Source of the DNA: Oxalobacteraceae bacterium
GTDB lineage: Bacteria; Pseudomonadota; Gammaproteobacteria; Burkholderiales; Burkholderiaceae_D
Assembly: GCA_023259175.1 (NCBI GenBank)
Contig: JAHFQV010000017.1
Coordinates: forward strand, 1 to 36,676
DNA length: 36,676 bases
Reading direction: 5' to 3'
Below, one piece after another: positions 26,134-36,676 of this stretch. How positions within the stretch are numbered: the first letter of the stretch is position 1; each line of letters opens with the position of its first letter. The notes beneath the pieces are model-generated. The model saw nothing but the letters and a program-made list of their open reading frames with translations, was not told the origin of the DNA and ran no database searches. The position numbers and the translations under genes are program-made.

Positions 26134-26257
26134 GGTATTCACTTAGGTATTCACTTAGGTATTCACTTAGGTATTCACTTAGGTATTCACTTAGGTATTC
26201 ACTTAGGTATTCACTTAGGTATTCACTTAGGTATTCACTTAGGTATTCGCTTAGGTA
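26134..26257. repeat. 12-bp tandem repeat array, ten copies
   Basis: Unit GGTATTCACTTA repeats ten times from 26134 to 26253, followed by a partial GGTA. All copies are identical except the last, which has G for A. The array ends 3 bp from the ATG of the GDCCVxC gene, so it forms that gene's leader and ribosome-binding region. On that strand each unit reads GTG AAT ACC TAA in the gene's frame. On the plus strand it is open and would encode repeated Gly-Ile-His-Leu, which I regard as a by-product. There are no spacers, so this is not a CRISPR array. Confidence 0.97.
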
Positions 26258-26519: not shown

Positions 26520-27908
26520 ATGCCTTCTGCTTCTCCACTGCCCTTTTCCGCCTTAGCCTTAGATTCTGCCCTGTTGAGCAATCTCGATAGCCTAGGCTAT
26601 CAGTTCATGACACCTATCCAGGAAGTCAGTATTCCACTCATGCTCGAACAACGTGATTTAATTGCACAAGCTAAAACAGGCAGTGGAAAAACGGCAGCCT
26701 TTGGCTTAGGCATCTTAAGTCAAATCAAGGCCAGCTATTTTGCCACGCAAGGCTTGGTGATCTGCCCAACCCGCGAACTAGCCGATCAAGTGGCGAACGA
26801 ATTACGCCGCCTTGCACGCGCCATTCCGAATATCAAAATTCTTTCACTCTGCGGTGGCAATCCTATGCGCCCACAAATCGCCTCGCTCGAACGCGGTGCG
26901 CATATTGTCGTGGGGACGCCGGGACGAATACTTGACCATATCGGACGCGCCAGCATTGATCTTTCCACACTCAAAGTCTTGGTGCTGGATGAAGCCGATC
27001 GCATGATAGACATGGGTTTTTATGAAGACATGCTTGGCATAGTCGCCGCCTGTTCGCCGCGTCGCCAAACTTGGTTGTTTTCCGCGACTTACGCCAATGA
27101 TGTGCGACAGGCCAGTGAACGCTTTTTACGCGATCCCGTTGAGATTAAAGTGGATAGCAATCCTCAGAGTCTCGCGATTGAACAATTCTTTTTTGAGGTC
27201 GCGCCAGAGAACCGGAATACGGCCGTAAGCACCCTCTTATTTCATTATCGTCCCGCCTCCTGCATCGCCTTTTGCAATACCAAAATTCATTGCGATGAAT
27301 TGGCCGCCGAGCTACAACAAAAAGGCATCACCGCCTTGGCATTGCACGGCGACTTAGAGCAAAGAGATCGCGATGAAATTCTCGTGCTCTTTGCAAATCA
27401 AAGCTGTTTAGTTTTAGTCGCCACCGATGTCGCCGCACGCGGTATCGATATTCCGGCTTTAGGTGCGGTGATCAACGTTGATGTTTCTCGTGACCCTGAA
27501 GTACACGTTCACCGAATTGGGCGTTGCGGTCGTGCTGGTCAATCGGGGCTCGCCTTAAACTTAATCGCGCCGAACGAAAAAAAATATCTGCGCAACATCG
27601 AAGAATATCAAGCCCAACTCGGCTTATGGCAAGAGCTCAGTACTTTGACCGTGGAATCTGAAACGCTGACCACGCCCATGATTACGCTGTGTATCGCAGG
27701 CGGCAAAAAAGACAAGCTCAGGCCAGGCGATTTACTAGGCGCACTAACAGGCGATGTCGGTCTTAAGAAAGAGCAAGTGGGCAAAATCAATGTCTTTGAA
27801 TTTCAAACCTATGTCGCGCTCGACCATCGTATTGCACACATCGCTTTAGAACAATTAAGTCGCTGCTCAATTAAGGGGCGGCAGTTTAAAATTCGTGAAA
27901 TCAGCTAA
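26520..27908 (+). CDS. dbpA: ATP-dependent RNA helicase DbpA
   Basis: DEAD-box helicase that acts in 50S subunit assembly, recruited to helix 92 of 23S rRNA. The 462-residue protein begins at ATG 26520; an in-frame TTG at 26472 would add 16 residues without similarity. The Q-motif and TPIQ lie around residue 30. AKTGSGKT is at 51-58, followed by PTRELA, VGTPGR, VLDEADRM, SAT and HRIGRCGRAG. The last 75 residues (MITLCIAGGKKDKLRPGDLLGAL-like) form the DbpA-specific RNA-binding domain, which sets it apart from RhlE or DeaD. The response regulator gene follows after 16 bp and could be read through from dbpA. Confidence 0.95.
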   Translation: MPSASPLPFSALALDSALLSNLDSLGYQFMTPIQEVSIPLMLEQRDLIAQAKTGSGKTAAFGLGILSQIKASYFATQGLVICPTRELADQVANELRRLARAIPNIKILSLCGGNPMRPQIASLERGAHIVVGTPGRILDHIGRASIDLSTLKVLVLDEADRMIDMGFYEDMLGIVAACSPRRQTWLFSATYANDVRQASERFLRDPVEIKVDSNPQSLAIEQFFFEVAPENRNTAVSTLLFHYRPASCIAFCNTKIHCDELAAELQQKGITALALHGDLEQRDRDEILVLFANQSCLVLVATDVAARGIDIPALGAVINVDVSRDPEVHVHRIGRCGRAGQSGLALNLIAPNEKKYLRNIEEYQAQLGLWQELSTLTVESETLTTPMITLCIAGGKKDKLRPGDLLGALTGDVGLKKEQVGKINVFEFQTYVALDHRIAHIALEQLSRCSIKGRQFKIREIS

Positions 27909-27924
27909 GGCCAGCACAGATAAA

Positions 27925-28560
27925 ATGATACGTATCCTGATCGCAGACGACCACACTATTTTACGTGAAGGTTTAAAACGCATTCTCGATGGTGTCGAGG
28001 ATATTTGCGTGGTTGCAGAGGCCGTCGATGGGCATGACACCTTAAACAAAGTCCGCACTGAAAAATTCGACGTGCTCTTGTTAGACTTATCCATGCCGGG
28101 ACGTAGCGGGGTCGATTTGATTCATCAAATCAAGGCCGAATTTCCAAAACTCCCCATACTTATTCTGACTATGCATGAGGAAGAACAGTATGCGGTGCGG
28201 GCCATTCGCGCTGGCGCAAGCGGCTACCTCACCAAAGAAAGCGCAGGCACGCAATTAGTCAGCGCACTGAGACGCATCGCCTCTGGTCGCCCCTATATCA
28301 GCAATGCGGTGGCGGAACAATTGGCTCTTTCGGCGATGCCTAAGCAGCAGCAAGCTCAAGCCCAGCACAGCAACTTATCAGATCGAGAATTCGAAGTTTT
28401 TCTACATCTAGCCAAAGGCAAGAGTATCACCGAGATCGGCGAATTGCTGCACCTGAGCGTCAAGACCGTCAGTACCCATAAGACGCGCATCATGCTCAAA
28501 ATGGGGCTCAATTCACTGGCTGATCTGATTCAATACGCCATTACCCATCACCTACTTTAG
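27925..28560 (+). CDS. NarL/FixJ-family response regulator with LuxR HTH
   Basis: A 211-residue two-component regulator from ATG 27925. The receiver domain (about 1-120) has the acidic pair ADDH, phospho-acceptor Asp54 (LLLDLSMPG), Thr82 and Lys104 (LTKESAG). The LuxR-type DNA-binding domain lies at about 145-208 (LSDREFEVFLHLAKGKSITEIGELLHLS, KTVSTHKTRI). The likely kinase partner is the PAS histidine kinase at 30910, since that kinase subfamily (HisKA_3) pairs with LuxR-type regulators and no other is near. It is close behind dbpA, but a biological link to it is doubtful. Probable targets are the neighbouring stress and respiratory genes. Confidence 0.93.
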   Translation: MIRILIADDHTILREGLKRILDGVEDICVVAEAVDGHDTLNKVRTEKFDVLLLDLSMPGRSGVDLIHQIKAEFPKLPILILTMHEEEQYAVRAIRAGASGYLTKESAGTQLVSALRRIASGRPYISNAVAEQLALSAMPKQQQAQAQHSNLSDREFEVFLHLAKGKSITEIGELLHLSVKTVSTHKTRIMLKMGLNSLADLIQYAITHHLL

Positions 28561-28621
28561 GCTCTAGCTCGCCCGCTGATCTACTTCGTCTGGGAGCGAT
28601 GTTTGTGGGCAGCTGTCTTTG

Positions 28622-28635
28622 TAGGAAAATTCCTA
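28622..28635. promoter_or_regulatory. Palindrome TAGGAA-AA-TTCCTA
   Basis: Perfect 6-bp inverted repeat with a 2-bp centre, about 100 bp upstream of the stand-alone receiver gene. The size and symmetry suit a LuxR-type dimer. An imperfect copy TAGGAA-GCG-TTCCAT (28721-28735) overlaps that gene's ribosome site and may be chance. Confidence 0.45.
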
Positions 28636-28664
28636 GTCCACCCTCCCAAATTCTCACACTTCAA

Positions 28665-28680
28665 ATCAGCAAACGCTGAT
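28665..28680. promoter_or_regulatory. Palindrome ATCAGC-AAAC-GCTGAT
   Basis: Perfect 6-bp inverted repeat with a 4-bp spacer in the same 173-bp intergenic region between the two response-regulator genes. It may be an operator, or a weak terminator for the upstream gene. It does not match the FNR box TTGAT-N4-ATCAA. Confidence 0.4.
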
Positions 28681-28733
28681 GGGCAGCATCCGACTTAAAT
28701 ACGATACTGAACGCATCTCTTAGGAAGCGTTCC

Positions 28734-29105
28734 ATGAACTTATTTATCGTCGAAGACTCAGCCGTCATACAAAACCGCCTCACGCGCATGCTAGAGGAAA
28801 TTGACGATGTCAATTTAGTCGGCATCGCCGCAGGCTTAAATGATACTTACCAAACTATTCTAGCCCATCGCACCGAGGCCTTAATTCTAGATTTGCAACT
28901 GAGTGATGGCAATGGCCTGAGCTTACTCAAGAAAATAAAAGCCAGTCATCCACACATTCGCGTTGTCGTTTTAAGCAATCACGCCAGCGAAGCCAATCGC
29001 CTACTTGCCAAGCGCGCAGGTGCAGATCGCTTTCTCGATAAATCCACCGATTTTCAGCAAATCCCAGAGGTACTTGAGCAGTGGCATAAATTGTTGTCGC
29101 ACTAA
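28734..29105 (+). CDS. Stand-alone receiver-domain response regulator
   Basis: A 123-residue single-domain receiver of CheY type. The acidic pocket is EDS (7-9), the phospho-acceptor is Asp53 (LILDLQLSDGNG), the switch residue is Ser81 and the conserved Lys is 103 (FLDKS). There is no output domain, so it would act by protein contact or as a phosphate sink. It lies between a full LuxR-type regulator and an FNR-type regulator, and an independent control region precedes it. It could compete with the LuxR regulator for phosphate from the nearby kinase. Receiver identity is firm; its role is inferred. Confidence 0.92.
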   Translation: MNLFIVEDSAVIQNRLTRMLEEIDDVNLVGIAAGLNDTYQTILAHRTEALILDLQLSDGNGLSLLKKIKASHPHIRVVVLSNHASEANRLLAKRAGADRFLDKSTDFQQIPEVLEQWHKLLSH

Positions 29106-29184
29106 TTTTGACTCATTTTTTTAATGCAGAAATTCCGCCTCATCCCGTATTCATTTATCGAGCAATTTTTTCGGAAAGACTATC

Positions 29185-30045
29185 ATGTCAAACTTAGCGA
29201 TACTCCCTACACTTGAAGTTTCAAAAAGCGAAACGCCAATGTCCGCAACGATTACGAGGCAAAACATCAGCCTCTGGTCCAATTTAAGACAGGTATGCGA
29301 ATTACTATTGATCGAGGTTCCCGCGCGGGCCGACCAAGATACCCATCGCTTTCAACACCTACGCATCAAGGCCGGACAAAGTCTATATCGCACCGGACAA
29401 GATTTTGATACGCTTTTTTTAATCAATTCGGGCTTTGTCAAAACGGTTCATATCGATGAGCATGGTACGGAACATGTATTGAGTTTTCCCATGAAAGGCG
29501 ATGTCCTAGGTACCGATGGGATACACACACTCCACTATGCCTCCGATGCCATCGCCCTGTGTGATTGCGACATCATTCTCCTGCCGTACAAAACCCTCGC
29601 TAAGCTAACCCATACTTACCTGGAATTAGAGACGGCTTTATACAGCTTAATGAGCCGAGAAATCGTGCGGGAACAAGCGCTCATCAGTATGCTCAGTGCA
29701 TTAAGTGCCGAGGCCAAGGTGGCGCGCTTTCTTGTCAAACTAGGGGAACGTTTTATGCAATTGGGCTACTCAAGTCGCCAATTCAATTTGCGCATGACCC
29801 GTCAGGAAATTGGCAGCTATCTAGGCTTAACCCTAGAAACGGTGAGCCGCACCCTTTCTGCTTTACATGAACAGGGATTGATACGGGTTGAGCAAAGAGA
29901 GATACAATTATGTGATATTCCTGCTTTAAAAAAACTCAGGCGTTTTGCTCCTAATAAAGCCAAACAAAAAGTCGCTGATACGGTTAGCACACTCGTCAAT
30001 AACACCTTACGCGCGCACTGGAATTCGGAATTAGCGAGCGCTTAA
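29185..30045 (+). CDS. Crp/Fnr-family regulator of FixK type (no FeS cysteines)
   Basis: A 286-residue regulator with a cyclic-nucleotide-like beta-roll (about 55-145), a dimer helix (about 148-175) and a C-terminal winged HTH (about 190-250). The recognition helix TRQEIGSYLGLTLETVSRTLSAL contains the E-x-x-S-R signature of FNR, so an FNR-type box TTGAT-N4-ATCAA is the predicted site. Of the four FNR cluster ligands only the equivalent of Cys29 (Cys38) remains; the others are replaced. It therefore probably does not sense O2 itself and acts like FixK. The tail beyond about 260 is an unusual basic extension. The usp gene follows after 24 bp. Confidence 0.9.
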   Translation: MSNLAILPTLEVSKSETPMSATITRQNISLWSNLRQVCELLLIEVPARADQDTHRFQHLRIKAGQSLYRTGQDFDTLFLINSGFVKTVHIDEHGTEHVLSFPMKGDVLGTDGIHTLHYASDAIALCDCDIILLPYKTLAKLTHTYLELETALYSLMSREIVREQALISMLSALSAEAKVARFLVKLGERFMQLGYSSRQFNLRMTRQEIGSYLGLTLETVSRTLSALHEQGLIRVEQREIQLCDIPALKKLRRFAPNKAKQKVADTVSTLVNNTLRAHWNSELASA

Positions 30046-30069
30046 TTTTCGATTTAAGGAGGGCATCTC

Positions 30070-30909
30070 ATGAATTACAAGACTATTTTGGTTCACATTG
30101 ATGATGATAAAGAGCTCGACCAGCGCGCCAATATCGCCGCACAAATCACACAAAGCCATCACGCGCATTTAATCGGATTAGCGGTCACGGGGGTTTCACG
30201 TTATTTTTTTAGTGGCGACGACCCTAGCATTGTTGCACCTTACTACGCACAATACGCAGACGCATTACAAACGCGTGCGCAACTTGCCATCGCGCGTTTT
30301 GAAAAAAATATGGTCGGACAAACTGAGCTGAGCTACGAAATACAGTTCGCGCAAGATGAAATCTGTGGTGGCATGGGTTTACGGGCGCGTTATGCCGACC
30401 TGATCATTATTGGACAAACAAATCCCAACCTAGCCTCACTGGCGACCGCCAGCGATTTTCCTGAATCCATTATTCTACAAAGTGGTCGTCCTGTTTTATT
30501 GATCCCACACTCTAGGTCCGTCACCCGATTCGGAAAAAATGCGGTAGTCGCTTGGGATGGCAGTCGCGAAGCAGCGCGCGCCGCGCTCGATGCTTTACCG
30601 CTCTTGAAAAAATGTACTACCGTCCATCTCTTGATCATCAATCCAAATGAGCAAGCAGAGACCCACGGCGAAGAACCCGGCGCCGATTTTGCACTTTTTT
30701 TAGCGCGTCATGACATTAAAGTTGAAATTGAAATTCGTAACACACCAACGATCATCGGCAACGCTATCCTCCAAGCATGTCAGGAATTAAGCGCTGATTT
30801 ATTGGTCATGGGCGCTTATGGGCATAGCCGTTTTAGAGAAATGCTGATGGGCGGCGTCAGTAAAACGATACTCACAAAAATGAATTTACCAGTATTGATG
30901 GCGCATTAA
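30070..30909 (+). CDS. Tandem universal stress protein (UspA family)
   Basis: A 279-residue protein with two Usp domains (about 1-145 and 155-279). The second keeps the ATP-binding pattern G-2x-G-9x-G-(S/T) in GAYGHSRFREMLMGGVSKT near the C-terminus. The first has lost it (IIGQTNPNLASLATAS), so probably only one nucleotide site remains. A strong TTAAGGAGG ribosome site precedes the ATG. The gene is between the FNR/FixK-type regulator and the histidine kinase, whose start codon directly follows its stop. Tandem Usp proteins are often induced by FNR-type regulators under low oxygen, which suits this placement. Confidence 0.94.
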   Translation: MNYKTILVHIDDDKELDQRANIAAQITQSHHAHLIGLAVTGVSRYFFSGDDPSIVAPYYAQYADALQTRAQLAIARFEKNMVGQTELSYEIQFAQDEICGGMGLRARYADLIIIGQTNPNLASLATASDFPESIILQSGRPVLLIPHSRSVTRFGKNAVVAWDGSREAARAALDALPLLKKCTTVHLLIINPNEQAETHGEEPGADFALFLARHDIKVEIEIRNTPTIIGNAILQACQELSADLLVMGAYGHSRFREMLMGGVSKTILTKMNLPVLMAH

Positions 30910-32016
30910 ATGAGCGACCCTATTTATGCGCAAGCACTTGAGCCAGGACTTGAACAACTCAGAAGCGACAAAAAGCGTTTAATCGGCGTAATCGACACTG
31001 CGATGGATGGCATCGTCACCATCGATAGCGAGTTCAAAATCATCCTTGCCAATCCTGCCGCAGCACAGACTTTCGGATATCAAGTAGAACAATTACTCGG
31101 TGCTACGCTCGACCTCATTATCCCGATGCGGCATCGTCACGCCCATAGCGCGCATGTCAAAGAATTTGCCCAAACGGGTGTGAGCAAACGCCGCATGGGT
31201 GGCAACTTTAAGGATTATTACGTCACGGGCTTACATGCCTTGGGTCACGAATTTCCGATTGAAGCGTCGATCTCTAGCCTGAACGAAAATGGGCAAAGTT
31301 TTTATACAGTCATTTTTCGTGACGTTTCAAAACGAAAAGCGTCCGAAGAACAAATGGCGCTTTACCACACACAATTGAGTCAATTATCCAGTGCCCTGCA
31401 AAACATACGCGAAGAAGAACGCAAACACATCGCCAGAGAATTACATGACGATTTAGGGCAATTGCTTGCCGCTTTGCGTATGGATATTTCGCTTATGCAG
31501 AGGGAGCAAGCGCTGAGCAACAAAGGCACATCGACCTTGGCGAGTATGGATCAATTACTCCTCAACGCTATCACGACCTTACGTCGCATTGCCAGTGATC
31601 TAAGGCCACGTTCTTTAGATGAGGGTGGGCTTTATTTCGCACTACAAACCTTGAGCAAAGATTTTATGATGCGCCATCAAATCGCCTGTGATTTGATGGC
31701 CGATGAAGCCGACCTAATACTCGACGATGAAAAAAGCACGGCAATTTTTCGCGTCGTCCAAGAGTCCTTAACGAATGTCGCTCGTCACGCAAAGGCGAGC
31801 CGAGTCGAAATCAATTTAAAACGTAGCGCCGACACCTTATCGCTCACGATACAAGACAACGGACGTGGCATAGAAGAAGGCGCGATGCAAAAACTCCGCT
31901 CCTTTGGTCTGGTCGGTATGCGTGAACGCATCAAGGCATTGCATGGCGATTTTGAGATTCAGAGCAAACTTGGAATCGGCACCGGCCTATACATTCAAAT
32001 TCCTATCTCGGTGTAA
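30910..32016 (+). CDS. Cytoplasmic PAS-domain histidine kinase (HisKA_3, NarX/NreB type)
   Basis: A 368-residue kinase with no membrane helix. A PAS domain (about 20-140) is followed by a coiled linker, the HisKA_3 dimerisation helix with phospho-acceptor His179 (ARELHDDLGQ), and an ATPase domain with N-box ESLTNVARHAKA (285-296), G1 DNGRG (316-320) and G2 FGLVGMRER (332-340). Aligned by eye to FixL, PAS residue His79 falls at the haem-ligand position, while the FixL distal Arg is replaced by Tyr103. Gas or redox sensing is thus possible but unproven. It starts right after the usp stop and overlaps the convergent COG2836 gene by 14 bp. Confidence 0.92.
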   Translation: MSDPIYAQALEPGLEQLRSDKKRLIGVIDTAMDGIVTIDSEFKIILANPAAAQTFGYQVEQLLGATLDLIIPMRHRHAHSAHVKEFAQTGVSKRRMGGNFKDYYVTGLHALGHEFPIEASISSLNENGQSFYTVIFRDVSKRKASEEQMALYHTQLSQLSSALQNIREEERKHIARELHDDLGQLLAALRMDISLMQREQALSNKGTSTLASMDQLLLNAITTLRRIASDLRPRSLDEGGLYFALQTLSKDFMMRHQIACDLMADEADLILDDEKSTAIFRVVQESLTNVARHAKASRVEINLKRSADTLSLTIQDNGRGIEEGAMQKLRSFGLVGMRERIKALHGDFEIQSKLGIGTGLYIQIPISV

Positions 32017-32803
32017 GGCACAGCCAAGCAGGTGCTGATGTCGCGTCGAAATAAAATAAGCCCATCAAACCCATTGCCAACATCAATAAAGCCGAGCCAT
32101 AAGAAATCCAAACACCCACCTTCGTTTGGAAACCGGATGGAGATCGCTGCAACATAAACTGTCCCAATACCAGATGTGGTAAGGCACACAAACCGAACAC
32201 CAACATCAACACTGCACCTGACCAAAATGAACCGGACAGCATCGCAAATGGCGCAACTGCAAACGACAAACCACAAGGCAATGCGCCCCACACGCCCCCG
32301 ACTAGAAATGGAGCTTGGTGAAATTTTCCAGCGATGCCTGACACTTTGGCATACAGGTCTGAATAAAATGTGGATAGAAATCTCACTAGCAAGCTAGGTA
32401 AAAATTTGGGCAGCCCCATACTTTGCCCCAAAATGCGCAGGCTTAAACCACATAATAAAAGGCTACCTATCACATGCCAAACTTGACTAAACAGAGTAAA
32501 ACGACCCGCCAAAAACCACCAACGCAAAGACCCGCCCGCTGCGCCGAAAAATGCCCCGATGATCATATAGGTCGTCAAGCGTCCAGCATGCAAAGCGATT
32601 TGATTGCGGAGCTGATGCGATGGCGTTGACGTGATTTGCGGATGGATGGGAATAAGCACAGCACGCTTAGTCACGGAGTCAACCACAGAATCAGCAACTT
32701 GCGCGCTCAGCAGGGTCGATACGCCGCCACACATCCCAAGGCAATGGATACCGCCCAATAATCCGGCACTCGCGGCTGCGAATAGTAAGGCGAAATTCAG
32801 CAT
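32003..32803 (-). CDS. COG2836 (TauE/SafE-like, DsbD_2) membrane protein
   Basis: A 266-residue membrane protein with about six helices. It starts with FAAASAGLLGGIHCLGMCGG, a signature with two cysteines typical of the COG2836 proteins often annotated as sulfite exporter TauE/SafE family. Later, GALPCGLSFAVAPFAMLSGS carries another conserved Cys. These genes are repeatedly found with cbb3 oxidase and hemN clusters, where a part in copper or redox delivery to the oxidase is suspected but not settled. Its ATG overlaps the hemN stop by one base (TGATG), so translation is coupled. The 3' end overlaps the kinase gene on the other strand. Confidence 0.85.
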   Translation of the reverse strand: MLNFALLFAAASAGLLGGIHCLGMCGGVSTLLSAQVADSVVDSVTKRAVLIPIHPQITSTPSHQLRNQIALHAGRLTTYMIIGAFFGAAGGSLRWWFLAGRFTLFSQVWHVIGSLLLCGLSLRILGQSMGLPKFLPSLLVRFLSTFYSDLYAKVSGIAGKFHQAPFLVGGVWGALPCGLSFAVAPFAMLSGSFWSGAVLMLVFGLCALPHLVLGQFMLQRSPSGFQTKVGVWISYGSALLMLAMGLMGLFYFDATSAPAWLCLTPR

Positions 32804-34188
32804 CAGATGAGTTTCGAATATTGCGCTTCGGTTTTTTGCTGCAAAAATGTGTCGAAAACCATGCTCAAAGCACGCACGAAAAATCGTCCCTTGCGAGTAA
32901 CGACAAGACGGTCTTCCTTCAACTCCACCAAGCCCGCATCGGCATAGCTTGCCATGATGCGCATTTCAAGCGCGAAGTAAGTTTTAAAATCGATCCCATA
33001 GGCCTCTTCAAAATCAGAAAATATTAAGTCTCGTGCGCACATCAATTGCATGATCAATTCGCCCCTAAGCACATCGTCTTTTTGCAAATGATAGCCCTTC
33101 TCCACGGGCAAATTTCCCGCATCCAAAGCACTGTAATAGGCAGGTAAATCACGCGTATTTTGCACATAAGCATCAGCAATTTTTCCGATTGCTGAGACAC
33201 CCAAAGCAATCAAATCGCATTCGGAACGTGTGGTATACCCTTGAAAATTTCTATGCAAACTATGATCCAAACTCGCCTGTGCCAAACTATCATCTGAACG
33301 AGAAAAGTGATCTAAACCGATATACACATAACCCGCCTCTTGCAGACGGCGCAAGGACATTAAAAATATTTGTAGGCGCTGATCGGCGCTCGGCAATTCA
33401 TACGCATCAATTCGTCTTTGCGACTTAAAACGAGTGGGTAAATGCGCATAATTGTAAAGCGCAATACGTGCCGGGGCTAAGGAAATCACTTGCTCTAAAG
33501 TTTTCGCGAAACTGCCCAGATTTTGCTTGGGTAAGCCGTAAATCAAATCAAAATTGACGGACCCCAGTCCCGCTTCGCGGCAGCCATTCATACAATTTTC
33601 AACCATCGCGAAGGACTGTATTCGGTTCACCGCTTTTTGCACATCCGTATCAAAATCCTGCACCCCAAGACTGGCACGGTTAAACCCTAATGCGGCTAAT
33701 TCATGCAAACTATTTTCCTGCACCGTGCGGGGATCAATTTCAATGGAGATTTCAGCATCGTCGGCAAAATCAAAATGGGTGCGCAGATTATTCATCAAGC
33801 CGCGCATTTCTTCTAGACTCAAAAAAGTCGGTGTCCCGCCCCCCAAATGTAGTTGTGATATTTTTTCACGTTGCGGCAAGTTCTGCAAAACCAGTTGCAA
33901 CTCCTTGTCGAGATATTGCAAGTAAGTGGCCGATTGTTCACGATGCTTAGTAATCACTTTATTGCAAGCGCAGTAGTAGCACAGCGACGCACAAAATGGA
34001 ATGTGGATATACAAGGAAAGCGCTGCCTTTTCGCGCTCTTCCAAACCGCTGCCGCGTTGCGCCAGACAGCTGCGATAGTGTGCCTCGGTAAATTGCGGGT
34101 GAAATCGATCGGCAGTCGGATACGAGGTATAACGCGGGCCCGACACATCAAACCGACGAATTAATTCCTCCGAAATATCGAGCTTCAT
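32803..34188 (-). CDS. hemN: Oxygen-independent coproporphyrinogen III oxidase
   Basis: Radical-SAM enzyme that decarboxylates coproporphyrinogen III to protoporphyrinogen IX without oxygen, supplying haem in microaerobic cells. The 4Fe-4S/SAM motif CASLCYYC (Cys66, Cys70, Cys73) follows YIHIPFC. GPRYTSYPTADRF near the start and LHLGGGTPTFL are HemN-specific and set it apart from HemW. I start at ATG 34188, giving 461 residues close to the E. coli length; AGGAG lies only 3 nt upstream. An ATG at 34215 or TTG at 34221 overlapping the previous gene is the alternative. It lies in the cco block and is coupled to the COG2836 gene. Confidence 0.96.
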   Translation of the reverse strand: MKLDISEELIRRFDVSGPRYTSYPTADRFHPQFTEAHYRSCLAQRGSGLEEREKAALSLYIHIPFCASLCYYCACNKVITKHREQSATYLQYLDKELQLVLQNLPQREKISQLHLGGGTPTFLSLEEMRGLMNNLRTHFDFADDAEISIEIDPRTVQENSLHELAALGFNRASLGVQDFDTDVQKAVNRIQSFAMVENCMNGCREAGLGSVNFDLIYGLPKQNLGSFAKTLEQVISLAPARIALYNYAHLPTRFKSQRRIDAYELPSADQRLQIFLMSLRRLQEAGYVYIGLDHFSRSDDSLAQASLDHSLHRNFQGYTTRSECDLIALGVSAIGKIADAYVQNTRDLPAYYSALDAGNLPVEKGYHLQKDDVLRGELIMQLMCARDLIFSDFEEAYGIDFKTYFALEMRIMASYADAGLVELKEDRLVVTRKGRFFVRALSMVFDTFLQQKTEAQYSKLI

Positions 34189-34217
34189 ATTCTCCTGAAC
34201 GCGACAAAGTTCCATAC

Positions 34218-34475
34218 TCAATCTACCTTTTGCAATAACAAGCTGGTCAGTAAGCTAGACATCGCGGCCAACAACCAAAATAATAGAAAACCGATGGTAT
34301 AGGCACCCAAAGCGTGCAACTGCAATCGCTCATCCAAAACAATCATTTCCAAAGGATCAAATAGACTAAAAAAGACGCCCGTCGCTAAGCATGCGACTAA
34401 GAAAGCCGGCCACAAAACAACCATCAAACGGGTTTTGAGTGAAATATTTTCTGGTAAATTTTCTGAATTACTCAA
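34218..34475 (-). CDS. Small two-helix membrane protein between ccoH and hemN
   Basis: An 85-residue protein with two hydrophobic helices (about 17-38 and 50-78) joined by a short acidic loop (LFDPLEMIVLDERLQLH). I do not recognise a named family. Its position, between fixH and hemN with a slight overlap to the longest hemN reading, fits a conserved small gene seen in betaproteobacterial cbb3 clusters. By context it may be a cbb3 assembly or stability factor, but it does not look like CcoS or CcoQ. Coding is supported by its length, helices and tight packing. Confidence 0.72.
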   Translation of the reverse strand: MSNSENLPENISLKTRLMVVLWPAFLVACLATGVFFSLFDPLEMIVLDERLQLHALGAYTIGFLLFWLLAAMSSLLTSLLLQKVD

Positions 34476-34529: not shown

Positions 34530-35120
34530 TTATGGTAAATTCAAACGCGCACGATCTTTTGCTTGCCAGTCCTTCGTCAAACGCCATTCATCGGTTTCTA
34601 ATTTGAGGTGCAAGAGTTTGACTTGATTGAGTTTTTCAAATTCAAGCTGCCCCAAACTAGCACTCAAATCCACTTCATAAATGCCGGGTGAACCCTGTTG
34701 CAAAACCAAGCGTCGAACCAGTTCTTCCACCCCACCCGAATCTGCGCCAGAACCAGCTAGGCTTAATCGAACTTGCTGTGGCAAACGCGCATTTGCGCTT
34801 AGTTGGAGGCTGATTTTTGATGAATCTAAGTTCCAGTGCAGCGCGCCTTTCAATTGCATTTGCTGCGCGCGCGCATCTCTTTGCAAATCCGTATTGATCA
34901 TCAAACCCTGGCGATAATAATCCTTTGCCACCACCTGATCCGCGCCATGTATCGCCAAATAGGCCGTCCACAGACATGCGATGACTACCAATGAAGGCCC
35001 CGCAATCACGAACCATACCCATGCCTCTTTGTACCAGATTTCAGTCGACGCATTTTGATTTGGAACAAGTGAATGCCATCCCAATGCCGCGTCCGGCGCG
35101 ACCACGATTTCGTCCTGCAT
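34530..35120 (-). CDS. ccoH: FixH/CcoH family cbb3 oxidase assembly protein
   Basis: A 196-residue single-span membrane protein. The helix is at about 32-54 (AWVWFVIAGPSLVVIACLWTAYLA), followed by the family marker VAKDYYRQGLMIN and a periplasmic beta-rich domain. CcoH/FixH is needed for stable assembly of cbb3-type cytochrome oxidase. The ATG has AGGAG 6 nt upstream. It begins 9 bp after the ccoG stop, the standard ccoG-ccoH order. The N-terminal 25 residues before the helix are longer than in many homologues. Confidence 0.92.
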   Translation of the reverse strand: MQDEIVVAPDAALGWHSLVPNQNASTEIWYKEAWVWFVIAGPSLVVIACLWTAYLAIHGADQVVAKDYYRQGLMINTDLQRDARAQQMQLKGALHWNLDSSKISLQLSANARLPQQVRLSLAGSGADSGGVEELVRRLVLQQGSPGIYEVDLSASLGQLEFEKLNQVKLLHLKLETDEWRLTKDWQAKDRARLNLP

Positions 35121-35129
35121 ATAAAACTC

Positions 35130-36554
35130 CTATCTGGGTACTAAAAAAACGGCCCGTTCGGTCACACTATTTTTTTCTTTCGTCTCATCCTCAACGACAA
35201 ACCGAATTCGATTCGAGCCAGCCGGCGCGGCACCACGGGGTATCCTGACGCGCACCGGAAAACTGGCGTGGCTACTAGCGCGAATTTCGAGCTGGGTCGC
35301 ATTCACAATTTCAGCGCCGACGATCCCCTTCACCTGAACCGTAAATACATGCGCTTTTTCTTGCGTATTCATAATCTGTAGTCGATAGACGTTTTCGATA
35401 TTGCCGTACTCATCGATCTTAGGCATAGTGCGATCTCTTAGCACATCGAGTTTGACAGAAACGCGCGTCACAAGGACGAAGACGGAAAGCAGCGATATCA
35501 CCGTTAGTAGGGCAAGGTAAATTAATACTCTGGGTCGCACCATGCGACGCCGGATCGCCTTGCTATCAAGTTTTAGCGTGAGCGCATTTTCGGTGGTATA
35601 GCGTATCAAGCCGCGCGGATAAGCGAGCTTATCCATCACCTGATCGCAGGCATCTATACATGCACCACAGGCGATGCATTCATACTGCAAGCCTTGACGA
35701 ATATCGATGCCAGTCGGACAGACTTGGACACAAATACTACAGTCTACGCAGGAGCCCAATCCCAAACTCGTAGGATCACTTTTTTTACTACGTGAACCGC
35801 GTGGCTCGCCACGATCCTGATCATAGGTGACGATTAAGGTGTCTCTATCAAACATCGCACTTTGAAAGCGTGCATATGGACACATGCTCTTGCAGACTTG
35901 TTCGCGTAAAAACCCTGCGTTGCCGTATGTGGCCAAGGCATAAAAGATCAACCAAAAACTTTCCCAAGGCCCTAAGGCGTTGCGCAGAATTTCCGTCCCC
36001 AATTGCTGCACCGGGGTAAAGTAAGCGACGAAAGTAAAACCTGTCCAGAACGAAAAAAGTAGCCAGCAGAAGTGTTTAGCAAATTTGAGGAAAAATTTTC
36101 GAAAACTGAGCCCGGCCACATCCAATTTTTTACGCTGCCAAGCATCGCCTTCGATGCGCGCTTCTATCCACATAAAAATTTCGGTATAAACGGTTTGTGG
36201 ACAAGCATAGCCGCAAAATAATCGCCCTGCGATGGCGGTAAATAAAAATAGAGCGAGCGCAGAAACGACCAAAAGAATCGCGAGATAAATAAAATCCTGC
36301 GGCCACAAAGCCAAACCGAAAATGTAAAATTTGCGATTGACCAAGTCAAAAAGGACGGCCTGCCTATCATTCCATCTGCACCACACAGTCAGATAAAACA
36401 GCGCTTGCGTGATCAACACCAAACGCCAACGCCATTGATTAAACCAACCCTTCTGCGCACGCGGATAAATCTTTTTACTTTCCTCAAACAGAGAAATTAC
36501 TATCTCTTCGCCCTCTGCAACTGGGCGAATGGGAATGACAGTCCGATTTTTCAT
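35130..36554 (-). CDS. ccoG: Cytochrome c oxidase accessory protein CcoG (FixG/RdxA)
   Basis: A 474-residue inner-membrane iron-sulfur protein thought to reduce copper for insertion into the cbb3 oxidase. It has about five membrane helices (among them about 48-65, 88-110, 160-180, 198-215 and 340-360). The polyferredoxin section has CGYACPQTVYTE and EQVCKSMCPYARFQSAMFD. Two 4Fe-4S motifs follow: CVDCSICVQVCPTGIDIRQG and CIACGACIDACDQ. The C-terminal periplasmic Ig-like domain (about 370-474) is typical (FixG_C). It lies 38 bp after the gene presumed to be ccoP and directly before ccoH. Confidence 0.97.
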   Translation of the reverse strand: MKNRTVIPIRPVAEGEEIVISLFEESKKIYPRAQKGWFNQWRWRLVLITQALFYLTVWCRWNDRQAVLFDLVNRKFYIFGLALWPQDFIYLAILLVVSALALFLFTAIAGRLFCGYACPQTVYTEIFMWIEARIEGDAWQRKKLDVAGLSFRKFFLKFAKHFCWLLFSFWTGFTFVAYFTPVQQLGTEILRNALGPWESFWLIFYALATYGNAGFLREQVCKSMCPYARFQSAMFDRDTLIVTYDQDRGEPRGSRSKKSDPTSLGLGSCVDCSICVQVCPTGIDIRQGLQYECIACGACIDACDQVMDKLAYPRGLIRYTTENALTLKLDSKAIRRRMVRPRVLIYLALLTVISLLSVFVLVTRVSVKLDVLRDRTMPKIDEYGNIENVYRLQIMNTQEKAHVFTVQVKGIVGAEIVNATQLEIRASSHASFPVRVRIPRGAAPAGSNRIRFVVEDETKEKNSVTERAVFLVPR

Positions 36555-36592: not shown

Positions 36593-36676
36593 CTACTGCG
36601 CACCTGTAGCTTTAGGCACTGCATTGGCTTGGCTGTCCCAATTCACCTTGTCCCAATTCACCTTGTCCCAATTCAC
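36593..36676 (-). CDS. C-terminal end of an upstream gene, probably ccoP
   Basis: The last 27 codons of a minus-strand gene that continues beyond the window, ending with TAG at 36593-36595. The visible residues are repeats of VNWDK followed by VNWDSQANAVPKATGAQ. No cytochrome motif is visible in this fragment. I infer ccoP only because ccoP normally precedes ccoG on the same strand and the gap is 38 bp. A tail of pentapeptide repeats is not normal for CcoP, so another small gene is possible. Confidence 0.5.
   Translation of the reverse strand: MNWDKVNWDKVNWDSQANAVPKATGAQ
36634..36676. repeat. 15-bp tandem repeat at the window edge
   Basis: TGTCCCAATTCACCT occurs twice in full (36634-36648, 36649-36663) and continues for 13 bases to the window end. 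It encodes the pentapeptide VNWDK on the minus strand, in frame, within the end of the upstream gene. The true copy number cannot be seen. Confidence 0.93.

Follow-up and report, generated by a model that had tools for sequence, protein, structure and literature searches.

In rhizobia and Caulobacter, the FixL-FixJ-FixK cascade consists of a PAS-containing kinase, a response regulator (RR), a dedicated fixK target gene and a box at the cbb3 oxidase operon. HisKA_3 kinases are paired with NarL-type RRs in other bacteria: DevR-DevS/DosT of Mycobacterium mediates a low-oxygen response and has an adjoining universal stress protein (Usp) gene, and NreB-NreC of Staphylococcus, in which the kinase is a cytoplasmic PAS-HisKA_3 protein, is responsible for oxygen control. 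DevS senses through a GAF haem and no FNR-type tier follows, while the PAS domain of NreB carries a four-cysteine iron-sulfur (Fe-S) cluster and, to our knowledge, NreB-NreC likewise has no FNR tier. Here, we analyze a 36,676-nucleotide stretch of an Oxalobacteraceae genome (GCA_023259175.1, contig JAHFQV010000017.1, positions 1 to 36,676; hereafter the window), in which five genes at 27925-32016 are predicted to form a low-oxygen (or respiratory-redox) cascade running from a sensor kinase to an RR, an FNR-like regulator and the cbb3 operon. We place the probability of this reading at roughly 0.7. The nearest named relatives of the window genome are mostly Undibacterium species.

The FixL-FixJ-FixK cascade is mentioned in the available portions of PMC7888657 and PMC5234846. 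According to the latter portion, low oxygen induces fixK via FixLJ in the Burkholderia cepacia complex, which is the same order of control as proposed here. Unlike in the window, fixLJ and fixK have distant locus tags and the domain legend of FixL lists a transmembrane segment, PAS/PAC, HisKA and HATPase (PMC5234846, same portion). Compared by description only, this is the closest described relay in the wider family found here; the accessible text of PMC3759415 states that a classical cbb3 oxidase had not been detected among sequenced Burkholderia. In Herbaspirillum seropedicae, fnr1 lies near fixNOP and Fnr1 activates fixNOP, and the Fnr1/Fnr3 system shares with the window Usp genes in its regulon and hierarchical FNR control (PMC5934665, in part). 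The Herbaspirillum Fnr proteins differ in keeping the cluster cysteines, and the available part of PMC5934665 names no two-component tier. Within the accessible literature, searches on Undibacterium cbb3, on Oxalobacteraceae with FNR, response regulator and oxygen, and on fixK-fixJ with HisKA_3 returned no study of this system, and a search for TAGGAATATTCCTA gave no match.

The proposed circuit and its relation to FixL-FixJ-FixK

The original prediction described the block as a FixL-FixJ-FixK-like cascade built from a different kinase subfamily, and open reading frames (ORFs) and domain matches confirm its five genes with the domains claimed. All lie on the forward strand: a LuxR/NarL-type RR of 211 amino acids (aa) read from its ATG (27925..28560; Response_reg and GerE), a stand-alone receiver of 123 aa (28734..29105; Response_reg only), an FNR-like regulator lacking the C-x2-C-x5-C motif (29185..30045; cNMP_binding and HTH_Crp_2), a tandem Usp of 279 aa whose Pfam match covers the second half only (30070..30909), and a PAS-HisKA_3-HATPase_c sensor kinase of 368 aa without the membrane region found in most relatives (30910..32016).

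In the proposed circuit, the kinase would phosphorylate the NarL-type RR, and the phosphorylated RR would bind a palindrome, TAGGA-N4-TCCTA (28622-28635), and activate a single promoter serving receiver, fnr, usp and kinase. The FNR-like protein lacks the Fe-S ligand motif and so its activity would be set mainly by its amount; it is predicted to bind TTGAT-N4-ATCAA before ccoN and to turn on ccoNOPGH and hemN. The lone receiver would compete for phosphoryl groups, damping the response. In this model we infer phosphotransfer, binding, direction of regulation, signal, operon and the role of the receiver; the order of control is backed, at the level of sequence, by the cis-element, by the conserved block in the genus and by parts that occur either all together or not at all.

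The locus resembles the FixL-FixJ-FixK cascade in its PAS kinase, LuxR-type RR, predicted dedicated fnr/fixK target, FNR-type box at cbb3 and a regulator without the Fe-S ligands. It differs in its HisKA_3 kinase, NarL/UvrY-like RR and FNR-lineage regulator, in the extra lone receiver and Usp, and in the position of the kinase gene behind the target genes. An orthologous FixLJ-FixK system, either transferred or vertically inherited, would have the same order of parts and a PAS domain nearest to FixL among solved structures, as is seen here, yet this explanation is highly improbable and is contradicted by the subfamily scores. The kinase matches HisKA_3 (50 bits) with no HisKA match, upholding the claim that it is not of the FixL HisKA type; the RR scores 86 bits against the FixJ model NF006900 (cut-off 255), compared with 175 against UvrY/GacA and 131 against NarL; and the regulator scores 159 bits to Fnr (cut-off 228) versus 85 to FixK, with an alignment profile (A1) searched against PDB chains favouring the FNR lineage by 162 to 72 bits. 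These family scores support the suggested independent assembly for all three parts, and because neither RR nor kinase is of the FixJ/FixL type and the regulator is of FNR lineage, the logic looks convergent. DevR is among the solved-structure matches of the RR. Unlike in DevRS, the window kinase has a PAS domain and no GAF match, and an FNR-type tier follows; unlike in NreB, its only cysteine, C260, lies outside the PAS domain. We see an even chance for a broader proposal, that the Oxalobacteraceae arrived at the logic of FixLJ-FixK on their own, using a HisKA_3 kinase, a NarL-type RR and an FNR that lost its Fe-S ligands, that the RR has about one site per genome, and that this relay and a classical oxygen-sensing FNR interchange at the cbb3 oxidase within one genus.

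A near-unique palindrome co-inherited with the response regulator

The genes, the sites, their conservation, the near-uniqueness of the palindrome and the co-occurrence of the components are established by sequence. The palindrome, TAGGAAAATTCCTA (28622..28635), lies upstream of the receiver-fnr genes, centred ∼86 bp before the predicted transcription start, and is the predicted RR binding site. Allowing at most one mismatch, its stringent form, TAGGAAWWTTCCTA, has a single match in the 4.03-Mb window genome, at this promoter. Among the 30 genus genomes listed in full, there are 24 exact sites and never more than one per genome; 22 of these precede receiver-fnr, one lies just past the RR gene at a contig end (G301) and one is elsewhere (G032, whose receiver promoter carries a one-mismatch site).

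The same pattern is seen across loci in which the neighbouring RR is at least 55% identical, the set to which the palindrome counts are confined. The core TAGGA-N4-TCCTA occurs with at most one mismatch in 91 of 100 distinct stretches between the RR and the next gene and exactly in 76, while the remaining 1,874,914 bp of the same loci harbor no exact core. Only identical stretches were removed from this count, which omits L081 (receiver start misplaced) and L096 (filtered), both with an exact site. The looser core is found 113 times in 124 loci, a number that includes duplicate Undibacterium loci present as unnamed and named copies, versus 0.95 in simple base shuffles. The palindrome is seen in Undibacterium, Massilia, Duganella, Janthinobacterium, Rugamonas and Pseudoduganella, with L149 included by the looser core.

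The link between site and regulator can be examined where the RR gene and fnr are separated. In g41 and g42, fnr has no RR gene next to it, but the four genomes examined retain the exact palindrome: it precedes fnr in L204 and L258, and receiver-fnr in L259 and L260. Of the seven g41/g42 genomes searched, six encode an RR at 69-72% identity, the seventh (G107) having only a 56% relative; in the four genomes with a known fnr position, the RR lies on a different contig from fnr. Where the RR has diverged (59-63% identity, seven loci), the best site has two or three mismatches; six of 16 short loci gave no FNR frame and were not used in this comparison. The paired aspartates and the lysine of the RR receiver are conserved in 39 of 39 aligned proteins. 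On the whole, in these sequence comparisons, site and regulator move and weaken together.

Some of the counts pull the other way. Matches with at most one mismatch occur in 42 of 43 genus genomes, with per-genome totals like those of the reversed control; the palindrome signal resides in the exact and positioned sites, not in one-mismatch totals. No site within two mismatches is present in L076/L254, whose RRs are 68-72% identical, and despite a close RR only two-mismatch sites are found in L071, L077, L078, L105, L110, L113 and L198 (RRs 68-72% identical in L077, L078, L198, L071 and L105). These close RRs without a good site are compatible with an explanation in which another factor binds the palindrome, the RR regulates something else and the gene order is inherited without a functional link. 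This explanation also draws on a second conserved dyad (28665-28680), through which another factor may act at the promoter. The palindrome resembles the RcsB-type box, bound by another NarL-family regulator. This resemblance, the retention of both site and RR where they are unlinked (g41/g42) and their joint weakening in g5 speak against a different factor, which we regard as improbable, and favour the RR as the protein that would bind the palindrome. The nearly unique, conserved palindrome with its co-inherited RR is the strongest new point of the analysis, and the identity of the signal is the weakest; the predicted site (TAGGA-N4-TCCTA) makes the circuit testable.

The FNR-like regulator and its predicted control of the cbb3 operon

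The regulator had been described as cysteine-poor, which holds for the missing C-x2-C-x5-C motif but understates the four cysteines that remain, two of which are invariant. The motif is absent in 40 of 40 aligned subfamily members, in which C38 stands alone at the third position; by alignment, two of the three N-terminal FNR ligands are missing, and C128 does not align with the distal FNR ligand. The FNR-type recognition residues E218, S221 and R222 are present in all 40; E-xx-S-R are the DNA-recognition residues of E. coli FNR. A perfect FNR box, TTGATACAAATCAA, precedes ccoN at contig positions 40111-40124, and all 18 countable genus loci, the window included, carry such a box upstream of ccoN (17 exact, one with one mismatch). 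Uncounted are L042 and L043 (short upstream sequence), L047 (cut gene) and L049, L054 and L057 (no cco), and the kinase-cco loci L194, L195 and L210 were outside the scan. The genome-wide occurrence of the box is less favourable to a defined cascade: the window genome contains 15 exact FNR boxes, eight of them inside ORFs, and hence no regulon beyond ccoN can be delimited. The box census was rejected as a regulon map for the same reason and because the reversed control (1) is an unfair background.

The invariance of C38 and C128 in the 40 aligned proteins raises an alternative, in which the FNR-like protein itself senses, through these cysteines or another cofactor, and the two-component genes set its level or act elsewhere. 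The alignment shows no equivalent for three of the four FNR cluster ligands, and in g42 (L259, L260) C38 is replaced by Gly or Ala, which makes a thiol sensor possible rather than likely. We consider direct sensing by the FNR-like protein unlikely, and prefer a protein whose activity would follow its amount.

Two Undibacterium genomes offer a direct comparison. In G154 and G309, the block is absent and an FNR with C-x2-C-x5-C is present instead, scoring 254 and 259 bits, above the Fnr cut-off of 228. Its gene adjoins, in convergent orientation, ccoNOPGH and the small membrane ORF (L196, L197), and a perfect FNR box lies before ccoN; the arrangement resembles that of Herbaspirillum fnr1 near fixNOP, as given in the available part of PMC5934665. 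No four-cysteine FNR was detected in the CRP/FNR census of the window genome (95.8% complete), which comprises, besides the window protein itself, one regulator encoded next to a NarL-type gene, one CRP-like protein and one match of Lrp type. G085 and G303 have neither the block nor an FNR of this kind. Judged by these sequences, two kinds of regulator serve the same type of oxidase operon and the same box within one genus. The genus may therefore provide a natural experiment in the rewiring of oxygen control, in which the same operon type and box depend in some genomes on a single protein of the Fe-S type and in others on a two-component relay that feeds a cluster-less relative of it.

Conservation in Undibacterium and beyond

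Conservation was assessed in 23 genus loci that surround the closest relatives of the FNR-like protein, and more widely by searching genome contigs with the FNR alignment profile A1, which yielded 80 named loci; an earlier kinase-based scan of genome contigs gave no matches. The order RR, receiver, FNR and Usp is kept in 23 of 23 genus loci. In 20 of the 23, the kinase and the convergent SafE/cco genes continue the block (L047 has its kinase in two frames), with hemN at the same spot in 16 of these 20 and missing in four. The kinase-cco part is relocated, yet together and convergent, in L054 and L057 (genomes G270 and G032; now at L195 and L194, respectively), while L049 ends with its contig and the kinase and cco genes of that genome are at the end of another contig (L210). 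The block, which is also present in U. amnicola KCTC 52442 (L080), is thus conserved beside cco genes within Undibacterium, but adjacency to cco is seen nowhere else, and the RR, its site and fnr form a wider core than the cco-adjacent block.

Among 43 genus genomes, the RR is present in 36 and the kinase in 36, while 38 encode an FNR-type protein, which in two of them is of a different kind. Of the 35 good-quality genomes, 31 have the RR, the kinase and the Cys-less FNR together and four (G085, G154, G303 and G309) have none of the three; the absence of C-x2-C-x5-C was verified in the protein sequences of all 31 genomes. The weight of this 31/4 split is reduced by the fact that it may reflect one or two evolutionary events.

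Undibacterium, Massilia, Duganella, Janthinobacterium, Rugamonas and Pseudoduganella are among the named genera of the FNR-profile loci. The predicted RR site points to where low-oxygen respiration is likely to be controlled in Undibacterium, and to where the FNR-like regulator is likely to be controlled in Massilia, Duganella, Janthinobacterium and their relatives. In the loci examined outside Undibacterium and g42, the site precedes fnr itself, without an intervening receiver gene. In g42 (L259, L260), the palindrome and the receiver-fnr-usp-kinase order are kept while the RR gene and cco are not adjoining; the operon therefore need not be linked to cco. Some Undibacterium genomes (L208, L211, L212, L213) contain an extra FNR-like paralogue elsewhere, also without the Fe-S motif by reading. 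The RR gene of other genera follows a gene for a 155-aa Usp, which in L063 and L070 (g6) has a perfect FNR box ∼95 bp upstream.

The sensor kinase and its signal

The best solved-structure match of the PAS domain is the FixL haem domain (53 bits), and H79 aligns with the proximal histidine of FixL, a residue that all 20 genus kinases counted and both g42 kinases retain; kinase residue counts omit L047 (split gene), L065 and L077. The kinase core is nearest to DesK/VraS-type kinases among solved structures, and its best models are MctS, UhpB and NarX. Several observations count against an oxygen-sensing haem in this kinase. The distal arginine of FixL is Tyr or Phe in the genus kinases (Tyr in the window kinase). 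In g4, g6, g12, g19 and g40 (Massilia type), the closest kinase relatives (18 loci) are 46-53% identical; the proximal histidine is missing in 17 of the 18 and the remaining one occurs only in an unlike, shortened stretch. Haem is doubtful because the distal arginine is replaced and the histidine is missing in these relatives, and haem sensing was rejected as a settled fact on the same grounds. The Massilia-type kinases, moreover, adjoin neither this RR nor cco and lie near a different regulator; at L274, a LytTR-type regulator preceded by a LytS-like kinase is beside the Massilia-type kinase, a motif found in eight of the 18. Consequently, kinase and RR are paired here on the basis of gene linkage seen in Undibacterium, g28 and g42, the kinase of g42 being linked to fnr only. 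A related but different kinase lies directly upstream of RR-fnr in L076, L077, L201, L202, L203 and L205, which represent five other genera. Given these differing kinases, the RR, site and fnr form a stable core around which the sensor seems exchangeable.

The architecture of the kinase also varies. The original prediction of a cytoplasmic PAS kinase is true of the window but describes a local state, as the kinase frame in 31 of 36 genus genomes is 602-738 aa long, a membrane-type length, and those frames that were read start with an N-terminal membrane region. A cytoplasmic location was therefore rejected as a defining trait, with frames of at least 602 aa in 31 of the 36 genomes. The membrane region is missing in the window and G302 and reduced in G304, by reading. 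Because PAS-HisKA_3-HATPase is retained when the membrane part is lost, the PAS domain is the candidate input. The membrane region may be MASE3-like, as weakly suggested by an NCBIfam match of the window kinase together with reading of the sequences; a literature search on MASE3 with histidine kinases found nothing. In G288 and G296 (L232, L233), the kinase gene consists of two frames, one with the membrane region and PAS and the other with the kinase part.

These features bear on the main competing explanation, in which the wiring from RR through palindrome to fnr exists as proposed but the kinase reads another respiratory cue, such as quinone redox, nitrate/NO or a membrane signal received via the N-terminal region, as in NarX-type kinases. 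The scores of the kinase core to MctS, UhpB and NarX, the PAS domain without the FixL distal arginine, the loss of the proximal histidine in Massilia-type relatives and the membrane region in most genus relatives all fit such an input. It is opposed by the best solved match of the PAS domain to the FixL haem domain, by the target, a cbb3 operon encoding a low-oxygen enzyme, by the persistence of PAS and kinase where the membrane region is gone (window, G302) or cut down (G304), and by the Fe-S-motif FNR that takes the place of the block in two genomes. A non-oxygen cue is a serious but minority possibility, and low oxygen (or respiratory redox) is the candidate input of the cascade.

Other elements of the receiver-fnr promoter

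An alignment of 25 promoters reveals four conserved elements: the palindrome, a TCCTAC-like half-site ∼21 bp farther along, the dyad TCAGC-N4-(G)CTGA, and a -10 element. The dyad, ATCAGC-N4-GCTGAT in the window (28665..28680), is conserved across genera and lies ∼42 bp before the predicted start; it was rejected as a regulon motif, with 13 genome-wide matches versus 13 for the reversed pattern and hence no enrichment. The predicted -10 element, on the forward strand, is GATACT in the window (28703..28708) and CATACT or GATAAT elsewhere, and the positions of palindrome (near -86) and dyad (near -42) are reckoned from it. A sigma-70 consensus scan detected no promoter before the receiver gene and no recognisable -35, which agrees, as weak evidence, with an activator-dependent promoter.

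In 22 of 23 Undibacterium relatives, CTGAT-N4-ATCAA occurs 54-55 bp past the palindrome, overlapping the dyad, and may provide feedback by the FNR-like protein. In the window, this autoregulatory box is broken, a further point unfavourable to the proposed circuit: only the first half is left in the remnant, CTGATGGGCAGCAT (28676..28689).

The lone receiver is encoded by the first gene past this promoter and keeps its phosphoacceptor Asp53 and Lys103 in 24 of 24 proteins. By analogy, it is probably a phosphate sink that would damp the response. In the rhizobial system, FixT damps FixL.

Gene neighbourhood and additional features

The contig that contains the window is 51,103 bp long and belongs to a draft genome of 4.03 Mb (95.8% complete). 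The best start of the RR gene is the ATG at 27925, with a GTG at 27895 giving an upstream extension. The intergenic gaps from RR to kinase are 173, 79, 24 and 0 bp, so receiver, fnr, usp and kinase can be a single transcript. The kinase gene is followed on the reverse strand by genes for a SafE/DsbD_2-like membrane protein at the end of the cco operon (32003..32803; domain match), the oxygen-independent coproporphyrinogen III oxidase HemN (32803..34221; 586 bits, cut-off 325), CcoH (FixH; 34530..35120; domain match) and CcoG (FixG/RdxA; 35130..36554; family match), with an 85-aa membrane ORF on the same strand between hemN and ccoH. The genes ccoP, ccoO and ccoN, named by reading their sequences, are on the same contig past the window end. 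The block does abut cco and hemN, as predicted, but the two are convergent on opposite strands, the 3' ends of the kinase and SafE genes overlapping by 14 bp, and do not form one operon.

A second CRP/FNR gene of the window genome (contig G000:C233; L160, L003) is beside a NarL-type regulator with a HisKA_3-like kinase nearby, a neighbourhood that resembles an ordinary nitrate-type one. Upstream of the RR gene, ten near-perfect copies of a tandem 12-base repeat (GGTATTCACTTA) at 26134-26257 fall in a 91-aa ORF encoding GIHL repeats. Between ccoG and ccoP, a tandem repeat with a 15-base unit, which includes a run of N, occupies 36634-36676 and continues past the window end.

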